Source: Enterovibrio sp. JCM 19048 | Lineage (GTDB): Bacteria > Pseudomonadota > Gammaproteobacteria > Enterobacterales > Vibrionaceae | Assembly: GCA_001310415.1 (NCBI GenBank) | Contig: BAXE01000002.1 | Location: 124,001-188,000, forward strand | Length of the DNA stretch: 64,000 bases | Direction: 5' to 3' | In this document: piece by piece, positions 33,134 to 41,849 of the stretch | Position numbering within the stretch: position 1 is the first letter of the stretch | Layout of the letters: each line of letters starts with the position of its first letter | The notes under the pieces: generated by a model | Told to the model about the DNA's origin: nothing | Databases searched by the model: none | The model's input: the letters and a program-made list of their open reading frames with translations, nothing else | Program-made: the position numbers and the translations under genes

Positions 33134-34465
33134 TTAACCGTTTCGGGTGAGGTCGAGCGGCGCAAAATTGGCGTGATTCGGGAAGGTCTCACGGATTGTT
33201 GCGTCAGACGCGCCCAACCAACGGGCGAGCGCAATATACACCTGATCAGCAGCGATGGTCGGCAGCAAGCGGCCGCGTTCAACAGCATCCGGCCCTTCCG
33301 GTCGGTAGTCAGGCCAGGTGCCGATAAACGCAGAGCCATCGATTGCCCCACCCATCACAATTTGGTGTCCGCCCCAGCCATGGTCTGTGCCTGTGCCGTT
33401 CGCCGGAATGCGGCGGCCAAAGTCGGAGTGGGTAACAGTGATGACATTGTCGTGCAGTCCCAAGAGTTTGAGGTGAGCATTGAAGGCCGCCATGGCATCA
33501 CTCAATTCCGCGTACTTCTCATTCAGGCACGGTTTTGATCAGCGTGGGTATCAAAACGCCAAGTTGCAGAAAGAATATCTGCGTGCCCTGATTCAGCTCT
33601 GTGCTTTTGCGGATCAAGCGCGACGTCATGCGAAACTGGGTACCAAGCCCCGTGTCCGGATAGAGCGGCATATCGTCTTCATCGGCAATGCTGTCAATCA
33701 CGTCCATCAAGGTGTTTGCAACGTGAATAGAATCCTTGCGACGGACGCCAGTGTTTGGTCAAAAGCGTCGCCATCCACCTCAGCAAAGTAGTCATCCAGC
33801 GCAGTAACAGTGTTGGCATTGGCATTCAGCTCGGTGATCTTTTTGCCCCGGATAATGTTCTGATTCAGCGTGTTTGCGCGCAGAAGCTGGGTTTCACCGG
33901 CATGGCTGTATAGCGGAGCAAGGTTGGTACCTGACAGATCCTGTTGCAGCACATCCATCAAACGTCCTGCCCAGCCCGTTGTCAGGCTGTAACCCACAGC
34001 GCCTTTTTCCCACTCGTTCTTTTGCGAGTTGTGGGAAAACAGAAATGGCGGTAACCGATAGCCCTGGGTGTCTGCTTCTTCCTTGGTCAGCGGTTCGCGA
34101 AGGATGCCGCTGTTGACGATGACACTGGCTTCCCGATTGGCAAAAACCTCGGCCAATTTGGTCATTTTCGGGTGCAGGCCGAGCGAAACCTCGAGATTGT
34201 CCCGGCAGCGTCCCGTTGCCGGAACAGGCAACAACTGTTCTTTAGCCAACGCAAGATCAGGGCGCACATCAAAATAGGTTTGGTAGTGCGTTTCGCTGGT
34301 GGGAACCACCATATTGGCGGCGTCATTCCCACCATCCAGCAGCACGCAAACCAGCGCTTTGCTGGCTCCTGTTGAGCCTGCAAAGCCCAGCGGCGCAGTC
34401 AGCACGGAAGGTGCAGCGACAGAAAGCACAGTGATGTTCTTTAGAAAGTCACGACGGGTAACCAT
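33134..34465 (-). CDS. DUF1501 protein with Tat signal, frameshifted
   Basis: DUF1501 proteins resemble the alkaline phosphatase/sulfatase fold and are exported. The start at 34465 gives a Tat signal (VTRRDFLKNITVLSVAAPSVL), then LDGGNDAANMVVPT, SLGLHPKM and a middle block; later frames carry FFLQLGGFDTHADQ, SDAMAAFNAHLKLLG, TVTHSDFGRRIPANGTGTDHGWGGHQIVMGG and the C-terminus. Breaks lie near 33712 and 33525-33545. The corrected length is about 445 residues. It is 2 bp downstream of the DUF1800 gene, a common pair in marine bacteria whose joint role is not established. Confidence 0.86.
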
Positions 34466-34467
34466 AT

Positions 34468-36195
34468 CTACCTCTGGATCAAAAATTCGGGACTAGTCAC
34501 CACCAGGGTGAGCGCAATGGCCGCTTTGTTCTGGTAAATCCGCTCTGAAGCAATGGCATTCATCATGGCGACACGGAGCGTATTGCTCATTGCTCCATCA
34601 AGAAAGCGTGCATTGATAAGATCAGGCAGGGCATTCTCATCCGCTGACTGTGCAGCAGTGAAATAGGCTGACAGATCCAGATAGATAGCGTTGTCACAGC
34701 GAACGGTATCCGGTTTGTACACCCTTGAAAAACGCGGACGCAGCGCATTCTGGTAACTGATAAATCCGGCCCATGGCATGATTTCAAATTCAGGTGCCTT
34801 CAGCCCGCTGTCGGAAAGCGGCCCGCTGGGGCTGAATTCCGGTGAATAAAAGTTAAAGACGGATGTGGCTGCCAGTGGTCCCTGTGCAATGGAATGGAAA
34901 ATTTCATTGGTATCAAGGGGAAGGGCATCCTTACCGCCATAGGTTTTCGCGTTGAGGATCCGGAACACTTCGGCGACAGCCAGGATTGGCTCTTTGAGTT
35001 TGGCTACCGGGTAGCGCTCAGGATCGCTTGAACCGTTTAGAGCCTCGTCATCCAGCCAAATTGCCGCGAACACACTTTCCATGTCGCCACGAATTCCCTG
35101 CCCGTTATCGTTAAACGCCTGGGCAACACGCTCGATGTAAGCCGGAGAAGGGTTTGACGTCACCAGACGCTGGATCAGGTGGCGCGCGACAAACGGCCCG
35201 GTGTTCGGGTGCTCGAAAAGAATATCCAACACATCCTGCACATCTTTCAGCGGTGTTTGACCGGCAGGGAGCGTATGGCCGAAAACGGTTTTTTCGCCAT
35301 CATCGTGCCAGCTTCCCCCATTTGTCAGAGCCCGGCATCATAGGCTGGATCAATCCTTTTCCATCCACCGGGCGGTTGGTTTCAGGGTCGAGTACGCGGT
35401 CGGAATAGGTCCAGCCACTGAATGCCCGCGCAATTTCTTCGACATCACCCTGGGTGTAGGTTTGGATTTTATTGCCCTGCTGTCCAGCTTGGGCGTGCCG
35501 TCCGTGTTCAGCTCGTACAAACCGATGGTAAAGAGCTGCATCACCTCCCGCGCATAGTTTTCATCCGGATAGGTGCCGCGTTTAGGGTTGTGCTTTTTGC
35601 TGTTCACCATGCTGAGGTAACTGCCCATGGCTGGGCTGAGCGTGACGGCTTCAAGCAGGTCGCGGTAATTGCCGAAAGCATGTTGTTGCAGGATATCGTA
35701 ATACGCAGCAAGGCTTTGTGGGTAACGGCCGATATAGGCAAAGCGGCGGCTGATAACCAGTATCTGGCTCAGGGCGAACGCTGCGCGCTGGCGAAGTTGG
35801 TCTTTCCCGTACAGCATCTGATCCCACCAGATTCCGTCACGGGCGGTGGTTGAGTTGGGGCGGACAAACCCGCAGTTGGACGGCGGTGCCATCGACGCGA
35901 TCGTTGGCAGGGCGGCCTCAAGCATCTTACGTTGAGAGGTGACGGGCAGGTTGAACTGCTGCTCCATCCAGTTGATGTACCCCATCCGGTTGAGATCTGC
36001 TGAAAGCGAGGCTGAGTTGCCTGCCGTCGCGCGTTCAATAAAGCTGTGTTGTTGCTGCTCAGAAAGGTAGGCAGGTGCGTTGTCCGGCAACCATGATGGC
36101 TGGTTTGGTACCGTTACGGACGGGCTTTCACTTTCGCCGTTGCAACCCAGTAAAAGTGGGAGCATTAAGGCGGCCAGCAGGGGGATTTTGTACAT
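34468..36195 (-). CDS. DUF1800 lipoprotein-like protein, frameshifted
   Basis: A ~575-residue DUF1800 protein. The start at 36195 gives a lipoprotein signal MYKIPLLAALMLPLLLGC, then the family blocks RMGYINWMEQQF, MLYGKDQLRQRAAFALSQIL, YPDENYAREVMQLFTIGLYELN and EEIARAFSGWTY (frame two, after a lost base near 35488). At least two more indels near 35280-35340 interrupt the HDDGEKTVFGHTLPAG region; the frame from 35241 then covers LDILFEHPNTGPFVARHLIQRLV and the C-terminus. It is upstream of the Tat-exported DUF1501 gene. Function unknown. Confidence 0.86.
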
Positions 36196-36417
36196 GCTTT
36201 CTCTCGGTGTATTGAGGTGCGGGGAATCTAGGCAGGGCTGTTAAATTGGTCAAGAAGAAAGGGAAATATTACGCACTAATGTCATATTTGTGAGATGTCG
36301 TTGAGGAATTTTTATCACATCCGCAGCGGGACAGCGGCAAGGCAAAAAAGACAGGGTGAAAGGGAGCGGATGAAAGCGCAGGGCTGGCTTGCTCTGCGCT
36401 CGTCATCGGGAAGGCTT

Positions 36418-37311
36418 TTATTGCAGCAGGTTGTCTAACGCTGGCGATAAATCGGGATATTCAAACCCGTACCCGCTGTTTTCCAGTGCCCGCGGCACAG
36501 CGCGCTGGCTGTCGAACAATAGCTGACCAGCTTCACCCAGCATCAATGAAATGACGAATTTCGGGGTGAACAGAAAGTGGGGACGGTGCAGGGACTTTGC
36601 CAGTGACTGGCTGAAGACTTTGTTGGTGACCGGCGTTGGCGCTGTGAGGTTAAACGGCCCGCGTGCGTCGGCATGGTTGAGTAAATGAATGATGCCACCC
36701 ACCATGTCATCAATATGGATCCAGGGGAAATACTGGTGTCCATCGCCAATCGGCCCGCCCAGTCCGAACTGGTAAGGCAGCAGCATTTTCTTCAAAGCCC
36801 CGCCTTTTTTGCTCAGCACGATGCCGGTACGCAGCAGGCATACCCGGGTCAAATCAGAATCAGCCCGCATGGCAATTTTTTCCCAGTTTGAGCAGACTGA
36901 GTGCGCAAAGTCCGAAGCGTCCACCACCAGAGACTCGTCAATGATCCTGTCACCCTGGTCGCTGTAATACCCGACCGCTGACCCGCTGATAAAGGTATGG
37001 GGCGGGGTGTCGGCCGCCTGGATCAAATCCACCAGTTTTTGGGTGATCCCCCAACGGCTGGAACAGATAATGCCCTTTTGGTTTTCCGTCCAACGCTGAT
37101 CCACGATGGGTTCCCCGGCGAGGTTTATCACCGCATCAATATGGTTCAGGCCCCCCAGTTGGCTGAGGTGGTTAATCAGGTGGACTTTCTCTGGTAGAAC
37201 ACGGCTGGCTTTTTCCGGCGAGCGGGTCAACACGGTGATCTCGTGGGAAGCGAGCCGGGGGATCAATGCCCGGCCAATCAATCCGGTGCCGCCGGTGATA
37301 AGGATATGCAT
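36418..37311 (-). CDS. yfcH: YfcH-type NAD(P)-dependent epimerase-like protein
   Basis: A 297-residue extended-SDR protein of the TIGR01777 group. The N-terminal ITGGTGLIGRALI binds NAD(P); NLAGEPI, SSRWGITQKL and SGSAVGYY follow at the expected spacing; the C-terminal half has PWIHIDDMVGGIIHLLNH and FNLTAPTPVTN. The substrate is unknown. It has about 220 bp of non-coding DNA upstream of the DUF1800 start and behind its own stop, with a weak GCGCAG/CTGCGC hairpin near 36376-36400. The gene is intact. Confidence 0.92.
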   Translation of the reverse strand: MHILITGGTGLIGRALIPRLASHEITVLTRSPEKASRVLPEKVHLINHLSQLGGLNHIDAVINLAGEPIVDQRWTENQKGIICSSRWGITQKLVDLIQAADTPPHTFISGSAVGYYSDQGDRIIDESLVVDASDFAHSVCSNWEKIAMRADSDLTRVCLLRTGIVLSKKGGALKKMLLPYQFGLGGPIGDGHQYFPWIHIDDMVGGIIHLLNHADARGPFNLTAPTPVTNKVFSQSLAKSLHRPHFLFTPKFVISLMLGEAGQLLFDSQRAVPRALENSGYGFEYPDLSPALDNLLQ

Positions 37312-37521
37312 GTGACAGTGTCCCTTAAGTGGTTATTAGAACCAGTATGCATTCAATTGGTTAATTGATCAGCCAGACAATGATCTTAATGCCGAAAATC
37401 GTGAGTCCCTTGTTAGCTGTATCACCCTATTGATATTGTGGATTGGCAATTTCGCTGACCTTGGCCCAGTTTTAAAGGCACAAATGTACTTTTCGCCCTA
37501 GTTTTGTTTTTCGGAGTATCA

Positions 37522-38256
37522 GTGAAGGGATTGACTGCATTACTCACCGCGATGTTAGGCAGCCTGAAAGACTTGCTGCCCATCATCCTCGTCATCGGTT
37601 TTTTCCAAATCATCGTTTTGCAACAACCTTTGCCAGACTGGATATCAATCATGGTCGGTTTGGTGCTGGTGGTCGTAGGGCTGACTTTCTTTGTTTTTGG
37701 CCTTGAAATGGGTTTGTTCCCCATCGGTGAATCCATGGCTCACTCCCTGGCGCGAAAGGGCAGTGTGTTCTGGCTGATTGTCTTTGCTTTCCTGCTTGGC
37801 TTTGGCACCACGATTGCAGAGCCTGCGCTAACTGCGGTAGCGGCGGAAGCAGCGCAAGTGGCGGCGGAAGGGGGCATGATAGGAATGACACCAGAAGCCC
37901 AGTCTTCCTATGCCAATGGCCTTAGGGTGACGGTGGCACTGTCTGTTGGGTTCGCCATTGTATTGGGGGTGCTCCGTATACTCAAAGGCTGGCCTATTCA
38001 CCGCATCATCATTGGCGGCTACATTCTGGTGGTGATCATGACTGCTTTTGCCCCGCGCTATATTATCGGGATCGCTTACGACTCGGGGGGTGTGACAACC
38101 TCCACGATCACTGTGCCTCTCGTGACGGCTTTGGGGGTGGGGCTGGCGACGGTCATCAAAGGCAGAAATCCCATGGTTGATGGCTTCGGCCTGATTGCCT
38201 TTGCATCACTCTCACCCATGATATTTGTGATGGTTTACGGGATGGTGGTGACATGA
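37522..38256 (+). CDS. DUF1538 membrane protein A (UmpA-like cation antiporter subunit)
   Basis: A ~244-residue membrane protein with about seven helices. I start at GTG 37522 because CGGAG lies 5 nt upstream. Family-typical segments are [31 protein letters not shown] and [21 protein letters not shown]; the charged or polar residues inside helices (E in TTIAEPA, D in AYDSGG) may form an ion path. DUF1538 pairs from halophiles have been reported as two-subunit Na+(Li+,K+)/H+ antiporters (UmpAB). Function here is inferred. The stop overlaps the next start (ATGA). The gene is intact. Confidence 0.82.
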
Positions 38257-39040
38257 CAGTCCTGCTAGATCTCATTCCTACTTTCGTTTCCACCCTGTTT
38301 TCCACGGTGGTGGACGTCATTCCTATTATCTGCATTCTCTTCGGCTTCCAGCTCGCAGTGCTGCGAAAACCGATTGTTAACCTGAAGCGGATCATCTTTG
38401 GTTTTGTTTACGTCATCCTTGGGTTATCGCTGTTTCTGATGGGATTGGAACTGGCACTGTTTCCTCTTGGTCAGTCAATGGCAGAGCAGCTCACCGCACC
38501 GGAATTTTTATTCGGTGAGGGGATGAGCATGCCCCAAACCGTTACCTGGCAGCACTATTACTGGGTTTACCTGTTTGCTGCAGCCATTGGCTTTAGTACC
38601 ACGGTGGCAGAGCCTTCCCTGATTGCGGTGGCGATCAAGGCCTCGCAAGTTTCCGGTGGCGCGATTAGCGTGAATGGGCTGAGGTTTTCAGTGGCACTGG
38701 GTGTGGCGATGGGGATCTCGCTCGGTTGTTACCGGATCGTGGCGGGTGACCCCATTCATTTTTACATCATTGCCGGTTACATCGTGGTGGTGATCCAAAC
38801 TTTCTATGCCCCGAAATTTATTGTGCCGCTGGCCTATGACTCCGGCGGCGTAACAACGTCAACCGTGACTGTACCTTGGTGACGGCGTTGGGATTGGGAC
38901 TGGCATCCACCGTGCCGGGAAGGAGTCCACTGATAGACGGCTTTGGTCTTATTGCCTTTGCCAGCCTTTTTCCCATGATTACAGTCATGGGATATGCGCA
39001 GTTAACCGAGTGGGCCGCCAAACGCGGACGCGCTCAATAA
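38253..39040 (+). CDS. DUF1538 membrane protein B (UmpB-like), one frameshift
   Basis: A second, homologous DUF1538 subunit of about 262 residues. It repeats the hallmarks of its neighbour: [34 protein letters not shown] and [15 protein letters not shown]. One base is lost near 38876, after which the frame continues [34 protein letters not shown] and stops at 39040. The two subunits are 4-bp overlapped, so equal amounts are likely. They are followed by PII-like and CBS genes in the same operon. Confidence 0.82.
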
Positions 39041-39056
39041 CCAAGAGGGATTAGCA

Positions 39057-39407
39057 ATGCGGTTCAAATTAATCGTGGCCTTCATTGAAGACTCTAAAAC
39101 CGATGCAGTACTGGATGCAGCGCGTGACGCGGGGGCAACAGGTGCGACGGTAATTAATAATGCGCGGGGCGAGGGGCTGACCAAACAGAAAACCTTTTTT
39201 GGCCTGACACTGGATGTTCAGCGTGACGTCATGCTGTTTGTGGTGGAAGAGCACCTTGCCCGTAGTGTGCTGGAAACCATCAACGAGGTTGGCGAGTTTG
39301 ATGCGACGTCTGGCAAGGGAATCGCTGTGCAACTGGATATTGAGGATGCCGTTGGGGTGGCACATCAGGTGCGCGAGTTAAGTAGCGTGATTGAGGAAGA
39401 ACTATGA
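39057..39407 (+). CDS. PII-like signalling protein of the DUF1538 operon
   Basis: A 116-residue protein with the start of the PII fold (RFKLIVAFIEDSKTDAVLDAARDAGATGATVI), a T-loop-like stretch with ARGEGLTKQKTFFGL and the second half DVMLFVVEEHLARSVLETINEVGEF. The uridylylated Tyr51 of GlnB/GlnK is not evident. It belongs with the PII-like proteins that sit beside transporters and regulate them by binding a nucleotide. Here it lies between the DUF1538 pair and a CBS protein, so control of the antiporter is the obvious idea; the ligand is unknown. The stop overlaps the next start. The gene is intact. Confidence 0.82.
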   Translation: MRFKLIVAFIEDSKTDAVLDAARDAGATGATVINNARGEGLTKQKTFFGLTLDVQRDVMLFVVEEHLARSVLETINEVGEFDATSGKGIAVQLDIEDAVGVAHQVRELSSVIEEEL

Positions 39408-39798
39408 AAACGACAAAAAAGTCAGGGAAGTCATGAAGCAGGATTTTGCGCTGATAGATGGATTGACCACGGTTTCTGAAGCGATCCGGATTGCGCGGGA
39501 TAAGGAAATCAAGGCGCTGATCGTGAAAAAGCGCGATGATCATGATGAATATGGACTGGTGTTAATGAATGACATCGCTAAAAAGGTGCTGTCACAAAAC
39601 CGTTCGCCGGAGCGGGTCAATGTTTATGAGATCATGACCAAACCTGCACTGGGTGTATCGCCGGACATGAATGTGAAATATTGCGCCCGCCTGTTTGAGC
39701 GCTTTGGTATCAGCCGGGCACCCGTCATTGAAAACGGTGAGGTGCTGGGTGTGGTGAGCTACAACAGCATAGTCATGTACGGCATGGTGTCGGATTAA
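39404..39798 (+). CDS. CBS-domain pair protein of the DUF1538 operon, one frameshift
   Basis: A ~131-residue protein composed of two CBS motifs (KVREVMKQDFALIDGLTTVSEAI, then VNVYEIMTKPALGVSPDMNVKYCARLFERFGISRAPVIE). The ATG at 39404 overlaps the PII-like stop (ATGA); reading MKTTKK and inserting one A in the A-run near 39419 joins it to the long frame. Tandem CBS domains bind adenine nucleotides, so with the PII-like protein they would make a two-input energy or nucleotide sensor for the DUF1538 carrier. This is inference. Confidence 0.8.
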
Positions 39799-39829
39799 AA
39801 CAGCATGCCGTTGCGGCGATCAGTGGCGG

Positions 39830-40096
39830 TCAATATGCCGAGATCGCGATCGGGGCAAAAACGTCCCGCACACGTTGTTTCAACACTTTGGCGTCGGGAA
39901 ACCCGCCATCGCGTTTGCGCTCCCAGATAAGCTCGCCATTGCAATGGATTTCAAACCGCCCGCCAGTGTCGGGATGGAGGGTCAAGCTAGCGACTTCCTC
40001 GCTGAAGGTCGAAAGCAGTTCCTGTGTCATCCAGGTTGCACGTAGCATCCAGTTGCACTGGCGACAGTAATAAATATCAATGGTGACTTTTTCCAT
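39830..40096 (-). CDS. SelT/SelW/SelH (Rdx) family thioredoxin-like protein
   Basis: An 88-residue protein whose start at 40096 (MEKVTIDIYYCRQCNWMLRA) overlaps the TAA of the upstream gene (TAATG). It has the Rdx-family CxxC (CRQC, residues 11-14) where eukaryotic SelW has CxxU, followed by the family's GGRFEIHCNGELIWERKRDGGFPDAKVLKQRVRD. Such proteins are thought to be small redox proteins; the client is unknown. Coupling to a TauE/SafE exporter may reflect sulfur chemistry. The gene is intact. Confidence 0.88.
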   Translation of the reverse strand: MEKVTIDIYYCRQCNWMLRATWMTQELLSTFSEEVASLTLHPDTGGRFEIHCNGELIWERKRDGGFPDAKVLKQRVRDVFAPIAISAY

Positions 40097-40856
40097 TAGA
40101 GCACTCCCCATAAAAGCTTCACCCCGACCGCAAAGGTTAGTAGTTCAAACGCAATCTTGATAAGACGGTTACTGTATTTATCCGCCATGTAGGCGCCAAG
40201 GTAGCCTCCCAGCATTGAGCCAAGCAACAAGGCCGGTATCCACGGCCAATAGATTTCAGCGCCAGCCCACGCCAGTGTCACTGCTCCCAAACCGTTCCAG
40301 AACAGGCCTACACTCACCAGTGTCAGTGCCACCGCCTGTTTGTAATCGAGCCCAAACCAGCGCACCAGAAACAAAGTAACGAATAGGCCAGTGCCTGCGG
40401 TAAGGGAGCCGTTCAGCAGCCCGATGGCGCTAAGGCCAAGGCAGCCGATGACAAGTCCAAAGGTGGTGCGGTTACGGGGTTCCGCTTCCTGACCGAGAGA
40501 TTTACGCGTTCGGGAATAAAGGCCAAGCAGGATGATAAATGCACCGAGCAGGCCTTCCGCGACAGGACCTGGCACAAACAAAATCAGGTTGGCGCCGATG
40601 ATCACCCCGGTCGCACCGGCAAGGGTGACATAGATGGTGAGCTTGGGGTCAAGGTTACCGCTGCGCCAGTGCTTGAGTGCCGCGCCCAGACCCAATGCGA
40701 CAGACGCTACTTTATGGGTGGCGAGTGCCACTGAAAAGGTGAGACCGAGAAACAGCAACAGGGCAACTGCAAAAGGCCAGAACCGCCGCCAGCCAAAGAG
40801 GCGAGGGTATTGGCAAACAGAGAGCCGATAAAAGCCCGAGTTGAGAGAAAGTCCAT
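40096..40856 (-). CDS. TauE/SafE-family sulfite/sulfonate exporter-like protein, one frameshift
   Basis: A membrane protein of the TauE/SafE (YfcA) family. From ATG 40856 it reads MDFLSTRAFIGSLFANTLA and SLAGGGSGLLQLPL, the conserved glycine-rich first loop, then breaks near 40766 (CCCC read as CCC) and continues LLFLGLTFSVALATHKVASVALGLGA and a second repeat with GLLNGSLTAGTGLFVTLFLV and FGLDYKQAVALTL. Corrected length is about 253 residues with eight likely helices. It is 4 genes away from metNIQ and coupled to the Rdx gene. The substrate is not known. Confidence 0.88.
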
Positions 40857-40911
40857 ATTCGCTCACGACAATCCAAAGTGAAAAAGCAGTGTAGCAGTTT
40901 GTCTGCAGGTA

Positions 40912-40944
40912 GAAAAAAGCCCGTGGAAATCACAGGCTTTTGAT
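40912..40944. terminator. Bidirectional terminator between metQ and the TauE gene
   Basis: AAAAAGCC(C)GTG and CACAGGCTTTT arms with flanking A/T tracts, placed behind metQ region on one side and before the TauE gene on the other. One mismatch in the stem. Confidence 0.65.
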
Positions 40945-40978
40945 TGGGAGCAACGGTGTGGATGGGTTGAAAGGCAGC

Positions 40979-41790
40979 TTACCAGCCTTTCACCGCGCCA
41001 CCGTCAAACAGCTCATCAGCCGCGCTGAATACTGCGTCAGTCTGATACGCCTGAACGAACTGCTGCACGTTCTGTGCCTTGACGTTGTCAGTACGTGCGA
41101 CAATCAGGTTCACGTATGGTGACTCTTTATCTTCAACGAAGATGCCATCTTTTGCAGGTGTCAGGTTGATTGCGTTTGCGTAGGTGTTGTTGATAACCGC
41201 AAGCGTCACGTCATCCAGAGAGCGTGGCAATTGCGCCGCTTCCAGTTCAATGATTTCCAGGTTTTTCGGGTTTGCCGTGATATCCAGAACGGTCGCTTTC
41301 AGGCCCGCTTCGTCTTTCACTTCAATCAGACCCTGCTTTTCAAGCAGCAGCAGTGAACGGCCAAGGTTAGTTGGGTCGTTAGGCACGGCGATTTGCGCAC
41401 CGTCTTCGATTTCCGCGACGGATTTCACCTTGCTGGAGTAACCGGCAATTGGATAAACCAGGGTGTTGCCCGCGATTTCGAACTTGTAGCCGCGGTCGGT
41501 GATTTGCTGATCCAGGTATGGCTTGTGCTGGAACGCGTTGGCGTCGATGGAGCCTCTTCCAGCGCTGCGTTTGGCGACACGTAATCGGTGAAGGTCACCA
41601 GCTCTACGTCCAGACCGTATTTTTCTTTGGCTACTTTTGCTGCAACTTCAGCTATTTGCTCTTCTGCACCGGCCATCACACCGATTTTTACTTTAGATAG
41701 ATCAACCGTCTCTTCCTGGCCACAACCGGTCAGTACCAGTGCCGATGCCAAACCTACAGCGGCTGCAATTTTCTTGAGCGTAAAAGTCAT
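40979..41790 (-). CDS. metQ: MetQ, methionine-binding lipoprotein, one frameshift
   Basis: The substrate-binding protein of the MetNIQ importer. The start at 41790 has GGAG upstream and gives a lipoprotein signal ending LVLTGC. The mature part has VDLSKVKIGVMAGAEEQIAEVAAKVAKEKYGLDVELVTFTDYVSPNAAL; one base is lost near 41550 (GGG-type run at LEEGSIDANAFQHKPYL), then it continues with PNDPTNLGRSLLLLEKQGLI and the family's VINNTYANAINLTPAKD. The corrected product is about 270 residues. It is the last gene of metNIQ. Confidence 0.95.
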
Positions 41791-41849
41791 CTTGTATCTC
41801 CTTGATTTTATTTTTTCCATTTATGACGGATGGCACAGCCACCCGTGTT

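Follow-up and report, generated by a model that had tools for sequence, protein, structure and literature searches.

A DUF1538 membrane protein pair linked to PII-like and CBS genes in Enterovibrio: a candidate PII-gated transporter module

The window analyzed here, a 64,000-nucleotide stretch of contig BAXE01000002.1 (positions 124,001 to 188,000) of Enterovibrio sp. JCM 19048, contains a compact group of four genes which raises the question of why two homologous membrane proteins of the DUF1538 family should be encoded together with two small proteins of sensor families, a PII-like protein and a CBS protein. The initial annotation read the group as a cation antiporter gated by cellular energy through two sensor subunits. 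The reading favored here is that of a UmpAB-type cation/proton antiporter whose gating would fall to the PII-like protein encoded beside it, the CBS protein acting as a second sensor, probably of AMP; we put its probability at about 0.5.

The four-gene group and its DUF1538 pair

The positions of the genes and of their main features are listed in Table 1. The group of four coupled genes described in the initial annotation is real, and the ATGA at 38253, common to the umpA-like stop and the umpB-like start, is present, but the window holds neither an intact umpB frame nor an in-frame CBS ATG at 39404: the ATG of the ATGA at this second position, which had been taken as the CBS start, does not share the CBS reading frame in the window assembly and runs into stops. 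The two umpB pieces cover consecutive parts of the UmpB profile NF041628. An Rfam search of 36000-41000 returned nothing at gathering score. Immediately after the module, on the minus strand (39830-40866), come genes for an Rdx-family protein and a TauE/SafE-type transporter. The closest named isolates to the window UmpA are three Enterovibrio records, with 89-91% identity.

Table 1. Features of the DUF1538 module, in positions of the window.
Feature	Position	Strand	Evidence
umpA-like gene, DUF1538 membrane protein, 244 aa, GTG start	37522..38256	+	PF07556 and NF041627 profiles
Glu100 codon, TTIAEP motif of UmpA	37819..37821	+	kept in 99% of 141 DUF1538 halves
Asp187 codon, [11 protein letters not shown] motif of UmpA	38080..38082	+	kept in 99% of 141 halves
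Asp220 codon, DGFGLIA motif of UmpA	38179..38181	+	kept in 91% of 141 DUF1538 halves
umpB-like gene, first part, 209 aa then stop	38253..38882	+	PF07556 positions 1-168; NF041628 positions 2-198
umpB-like gene, remainder, 51 aa, other frame	38885..39040	+	PF07556 172-210; NF041628 202-250
PII-like gene, 116 aa, without GlnB Tyr segment	39057..39407	+	PF00543; PII fold
T-loop-like segment of PII-like protein, residues 37-53	39165..39215	+	low pLDDT; alignment
CBS gene, open frame from TTG 39391 or ATG 39433	39391..39798	+	open frame; CBS match

Against the Pfam DUF1538 family (PF07556, curated cut-off 22.6 bits), UmpA scored 236.3 bits and the two UmpB pieces 167.5 and 41.5 bits. UmpA reached 372.8 bits against the equivalog NF041627, under its cut-off of 490, and the first UmpB piece 250.6 bits against NF041628, under the cut-off of 500; the intact pair of a relative (L055) scored 373.9 and 335.3 bits, respectively, also under the cut-offs, and no UmpA above the equivalog cut-off was found in 369 genomes of the class. 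With these strong profile matches, homology of the pair to the experimentally tested UmpAB, and so its proposed relatedness to reported antiporters, was borne out. The TT-x-AEP and [11 protein letters not shown] motifs were likewise found in both membrane genes, as claimed. In an alignment of 141 DUF1538 halves, drawn from the window UmpA, 40 phylum loci, one in four of the 80 species-genome loci and some distant proteins, with short pieces dropped, Glu100 and Asp187 are each conserved in 99%, Arg152 in 95% and Asp220 in 91%; the conserved Glu and Asp residues would fit an ion or proton pathway. DUF1538 proteins also occur in fused form, with ~500-600 residues, and in L107 the first half is UmpA-like and the second half UmpB-like. 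The predicted structure of UmpA is all-helical (mean pLDDT 83.8). The best Foldseek match of this model among solved structures had an E-value of 1.1, with 140 matches at E ≤ 10 and none at E ≤ 0.001, and the best match of a UmpA profile search against solved structures was a nitrogenase iron protein (E 0.5); neither sequence nor fold comparison turned up a DUF1538 relative in the PDB. The fold could have been missed in this comparison, the model being that of a lone subunit without its partner.

Na+ or K+ as the cargo, a part of the favored reading which rests on a relative, is less sure because the window proteins score too low for either NCBIfam equivalog. UmpAB of Halomonas zhaodongensis was reported to be a DUF1538 heterodimer by co-immunoprecipitation and to exchange Na+ (Li+, K+) for H+ when co-expressed (PMC5484666). 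It is possible, if rather unlikely, that the module is a PII-controlled transporter of something other than Na+ or K+, such as an anion (inorganic or organic), ammonium or a different small metabolite, and that the antiport observed in E. coli is secondary. Such a substrate would agree with the PII-family partners named in a review, namely transporters of ammonium, nitrate/nitrite, urea or bicarbonate (PMC10710835), with the presence of DUF1538 in faecal and sludge Clostridia, beyond halophiles, and with the failure to find a relative in the PDB. The antiport itself comes from one selection in antiporter-deficient E. coli, and screens of this type also yielded a UPF0118 protein. These points are countered by the reported exchange of Na+, Li+ and K+ by co-expressed UmpAB and by the Glu and Asp residues conserved in nearly every half, which suit a cation or proton site.

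Linkage of DUF1538 and PII-like genes across genomes

In a set of 61 genomes, the 37 that encode DUF1538 are also the 37 that encode the PII-like protein. All 36 carriers other than the window genome display the order UmpA-UmpB-PII, followed by CBS in 35; L065 is the sole relative without it. Across 398 genomes of the phylum, 120 encode both families, six DUF1538 only, six PII only and 266 neither (Fisher p 8e-86, a value which ignores kinship), the calls having been made at different cut-offs, E ≤ 1e-3 for DUF1538 (126 genomes, 125 of them over the curated cut-off) and E ≤ 1e-8 for PII (126 genomes). DUF1538 was found in 0 of 14 control genomes. The linkage is beyond chance, and the lack of conserved linkage which the initial annotation had named as a refutation, to be checked by genomic co-occurrence, is clearly not what these genomes show. 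The six DUF1538-only genomes are 56-89% complete, so a PII gene may have been missed in them. Two of the six PII-only genomes are 75-76% complete and four 95-100% complete; a repeat search for DUF1538 in all six found none, and in one of the four near-complete genomes (G308) the match to PII is borderline at E 5.9e-9. A PII gene unaccompanied by DUF1538 is therefore a rare but genuine occurrence. At L231, L234 and L236, a related PII gene without DUF1538 stands beside a FAD-oxidoreductase-like gene (named by eye); at L116 a similar gene comes after a complete UmpAB-PII group, which suggests that the transporter was lost or relocated at the other three loci.

Gene neighborhoods were compared at 120 loci, 40 of them picked from the phylum sample so as to be diverse, the other 80 being the best among the matches listed in species genomes, a set which leans toward close relatives and overlaps the first 36; 13 loci with an incomplete pair or with <1 kb downstream were set aside. 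At the 107 loci left of the 40 diverse ones and the best 80 among the matches listed, PII adjoins the pair in 104, and CBS is present at 91 and absent near 16. The loci without an adjacent PII are L135, L136 and L137, and in the genomes of the latter two PII and CBS lie together on a contig separate from that of the pair (L232 and L233). L135 (genome G149) holds a complete DUF1538 pair with neither PII nor CBS nearby, and PII matches on other contigs. PII follows the pair in nine of ten further loci, with none in the ~0.7 kb after UmpB in the tenth (L257). The fused DUF1538 proteins also have PII next downstream, including four more distant ones (L227-L230) in which the PII match reaches just 39-47 bits. 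In L227 (4712-5435) and L230 (6148-6974), two separate PII-like genes were seen after the distant fused protein; the second gene of these loci is very divergent and had no Pfam match in L230, the one tested.

The linkage extends to plasmids. Seven of nine DUF1538 plasmid records, from Bacillota and Alphaproteobacteria, were examined, and PII lies beside the pair or the fused protein in 7/7: the five records with annotation call the neighbor a 'P-II family nitrogen regulator', and a PII match was obtained beside DUF1538 in the two without annotation. The broad profiles used held rows from five of these seven records, L244 and L245 being independent. In five Bacillota records, broad profiles detected two PII domains in tandem in one protein, and Pfam recognized two PII domains in one of three Bacillota tandem proteins submitted. 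No CBS match was obtained in the seven plasmid loci. CBS is a common but dispensable part of the module; as for the two sensor subunits proposed as a fixed design, the PII half is nearly constant, whereas the CBS half is missing near 16 of the 107 loci and from the seven plasmid loci.

The PII-like protein probably controls the DUF1538 transporter directly, since it accompanies the transporter across distant bacteria. A tree of 69 PII sequences over 116 columns, in which many forks were unresolved, placed the PII proteins encoded in fused modules (L107-L111) in one group with a support of 100/100. Locus L109 (genome G193) carries two modules back to back, a fused pair-PII-CBS and then a PII-UmpA-UmpB, with a different PII type in each; in the second, PII precedes the pair, contrary to the usual order. 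The first PII of G193 falls in the fused-module group and the second among the split-module PII, on a long branch, and the same division was found at lower support in G122 and G156. In the three genomes in which both types were observed, the phylogeny supports a tracking of transporter type by PII type within the genome. A strict one-to-one pairing is doubtful because G098 and G239 hold extra PII copies which are not beside a pair. The extra copy of G239, seen at L124 (9694-10125, plus strand), is on the opposite strand to the UmpAB-PII group and >3 kb from it, with no DUF1538 beside. An alternative in which PII and CBS are co-transcribed sensors of another target, such as an enzyme or a transcription factor, while the transporter merely sets the ion level that is sensed, would be in line with the 6/398 genomes encoding PII without DUF1538 and with the two genomes in which PII and CBS are on a different contig from the pair; it is improbable all the same, as near-perfect co-occurrence, adjacency and the tracking of transporter type by PII type are expected of physical partners.

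In the relatives, umpB is a single open frame (36/36), CBS opens in frame with a start codon in a 4-base overlap with the end of PII (35/35 of those with CBS), and the 4-base UmpA/UmpB overlap is found in 31/36. Short gaps relative to three relatives recur along the window, the assembly of which seems rich in small indels. A DUF1501 gene (33134-34465), a DUF1800 gene (34468-36195) and an NlpA/MetQ-like gene (40979-41820, minus strand) are each split over two frames. The breaks in umpB and at the CBS start are likely to be assembly errors and not biology, as the relatives are intact, nearby genes are also split and the gaps recur; a programmed frameshift in umpB was rejected in view of the single open frame of all 36 relatives and of the split neighbor genes. 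True mutations in umpB and at the CBS start, leaving the module dead in this strain, would explain the frames broken in the assembly but are very improbable, given three further genes split within 9 kb, recurrent short gaps which point to sequencing error and an assembly just 87.5% complete. In one relative, L074 (G029), the PII gene looks split by a frame break with stops.

Candidate signals of the two regulators

The PII-like protein matches the Pfam P-II family (PF00543) with 44.7 bits (cut-off 25). Its model has a mean pLDDT of 76.1 and is flexible at residues 37-53 (pLDDT <50 at 37-47 and 49-53), and its best Foldseek matches are GlnK1, PII and SbtB structures, one of them from a SbtA complex. 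With a best E-value of 2.7e-5 and TM-scores of about 0.5-0.6 against the best PII structures, the predicted match is one of fold and not of detail. The same genome encodes two canonical PII proteins besides. In GlnB and GlnK, the T-loop tyrosine is the residue that is uridylylated, and the B-loop Lys and the C-loop Arg-x-Arg contact the phosphates of ATP. Compared with the two canonical PII proteins of this genome, the segment carrying the T-loop tyrosine is absent from the PII-like protein, as the initial annotation had stated; the GDGKIF of canonical PII aligns with GKGIAV, the lysine being gone, and the RIRTG with GVAHQ, the arginines being gone, while the glycines of both nucleotide loops are retained. 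Because the Tyr segment and the Lys and Arg residues are missing, uridylylation and canonical ATP/2-oxoglutarate binding by the PII-like protein are unlikely. Another ligand would then be used, perhaps a smaller adenylate.

Pfam recognizes a single CBS domain (64-115) in the CBS protein, the nearest solved relative of which is CBS-CP12 of Microcystis (5NMU). CBS-CP12 was reported to bind AMP and is described with two CBS domains (PMC9406205). Positions 1-116 of the CBS profile align to 11-126 of CBS-CP12 (E 1.5e-30), over the whole CBS part; the tandem CBS arrangement asserted at first is represented in Pfam by one domain but is consistent with this span across a two-domain part. The claim that both regulators sense adenine nucleotides fared unevenly, being weakened for the PII-like protein, in which the phosphate-contact residues are missing, and helped for the CBS protein by a relative reported to bind AMP. 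Of the ligands suggested at the outset, c-di-AMP lost ground. The c-di-AMP cyclase domain PF02457 was found in 0/61 genomes, all 37 module carriers included, as against 11/14 positive controls, which makes c-di-AMP unlikely as the native ligand.

Proposed mechanism and comparison with known systems

In the proposed mechanism, secondary transport, most likely Na+(K+)/H+ antiport, would be carried out by a complex of two subunits, UmpA and UmpB, with each half supplying a conserved Glu together with two Asp residues that are likewise conserved. The PII-like protein dedicated to this transporter is presumably trimeric, like other members of its family; it may dock from the cytosol via its flexible T-loop segment and, on a small-molecule signal, slow or lock the transporter, as GlnK does on AmtB and SbtB on SbtA. 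Where a CBS gene is present it overlaps the PII gene, and its product would add a further input, most probably from AMP or some other adenylate. What the data show directly is which genes the group holds, their order and overlap, their co-occurrence across genomes and the fold class of the PII-like protein; that this protein binds and gates the transporter we infer as the best account. The main difficulty of the gating model is symmetry, as a PII trimer would have to act on a reported heterodimer.

At slightly less than even odds, the proposal may be extended to DUF1538 as a class of PII-gated secondary transporters, paired or fused, which are nearly always accompanied by a cognate PII-like regulator from Pseudomonadota to Bacillota; the Bacillota regulator would be a tandem PII chain, CBS would add an AMP input in many Gammaproteobacteria, and flux would follow metabolic state without nitrogen signaling. 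If so, a widespread transporter family would join the few known to be PII-controlled, DUF1538 would gain a regulatory logic, and a direct tie of Na+/H+ homeostasis to adenylate status would become testable. PII genes beside DUF1538 which are annotated 'P-II family nitrogen regulator' may not encode nitrogen regulators. No report of a DUF1538-PII pairing was found in a literature search, most subscription papers and preprints lying outside its reach.

Among the known systems, UmpAB of Halomonas shares with the window pair two homologous DUF1538 subunits encoded by overlapping genes, and differs in that the window pair falls under the equivalog cut-offs and in that, in the sections consulted, no PII or CBS gene was described on the fragment cloned in E. 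coli (PMC5484666). As UmpAB worked from that fragment, the regulators would not be needed for activity. UmpAB homologs were also mentioned as possible salt adaptations of cable bacteria (PMC12093952, PMC10030654). In the GlnK-AmtB system, in which cytosolic GlnK blocks AmtB transport by its T-loop (PMC10710835), a PII-family gene is likewise linked to its transporter gene. The PII-like protein studied here differs from GlnK in having neither the Tyr segment nor equivalents of K90, R101 and R103, and its partner belongs to another transporter family, is a reported heterodimer and is joined by an extra CBS gene. SbtB-SbtA, the cyanobacterial bicarbonate transporter system, is similar in that a PII-like regulator is dedicated to a Na+-linked transporter, and SbtB is among the best fold matches of the PII-like protein, but the transporter family is different. 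To our knowledge, the SbtB-SbtA system has no CBS gene. CzcABC is a metal exporter. It belongs to another family than DUF1538; its genes cluster with those of PII-NG, described as evolved from GlnB/GlnK (PMC7726332), so that here too a PII-family gene accompanies a proton/cation antiporter. CBS-CP12 resembles the window-type CBS protein in its CBS part, whereas the latter lacks the CP12 tail, and the partner of CBS-CP12 is phosphoribulokinase, whereas that of the protein described here is a transporter operon.
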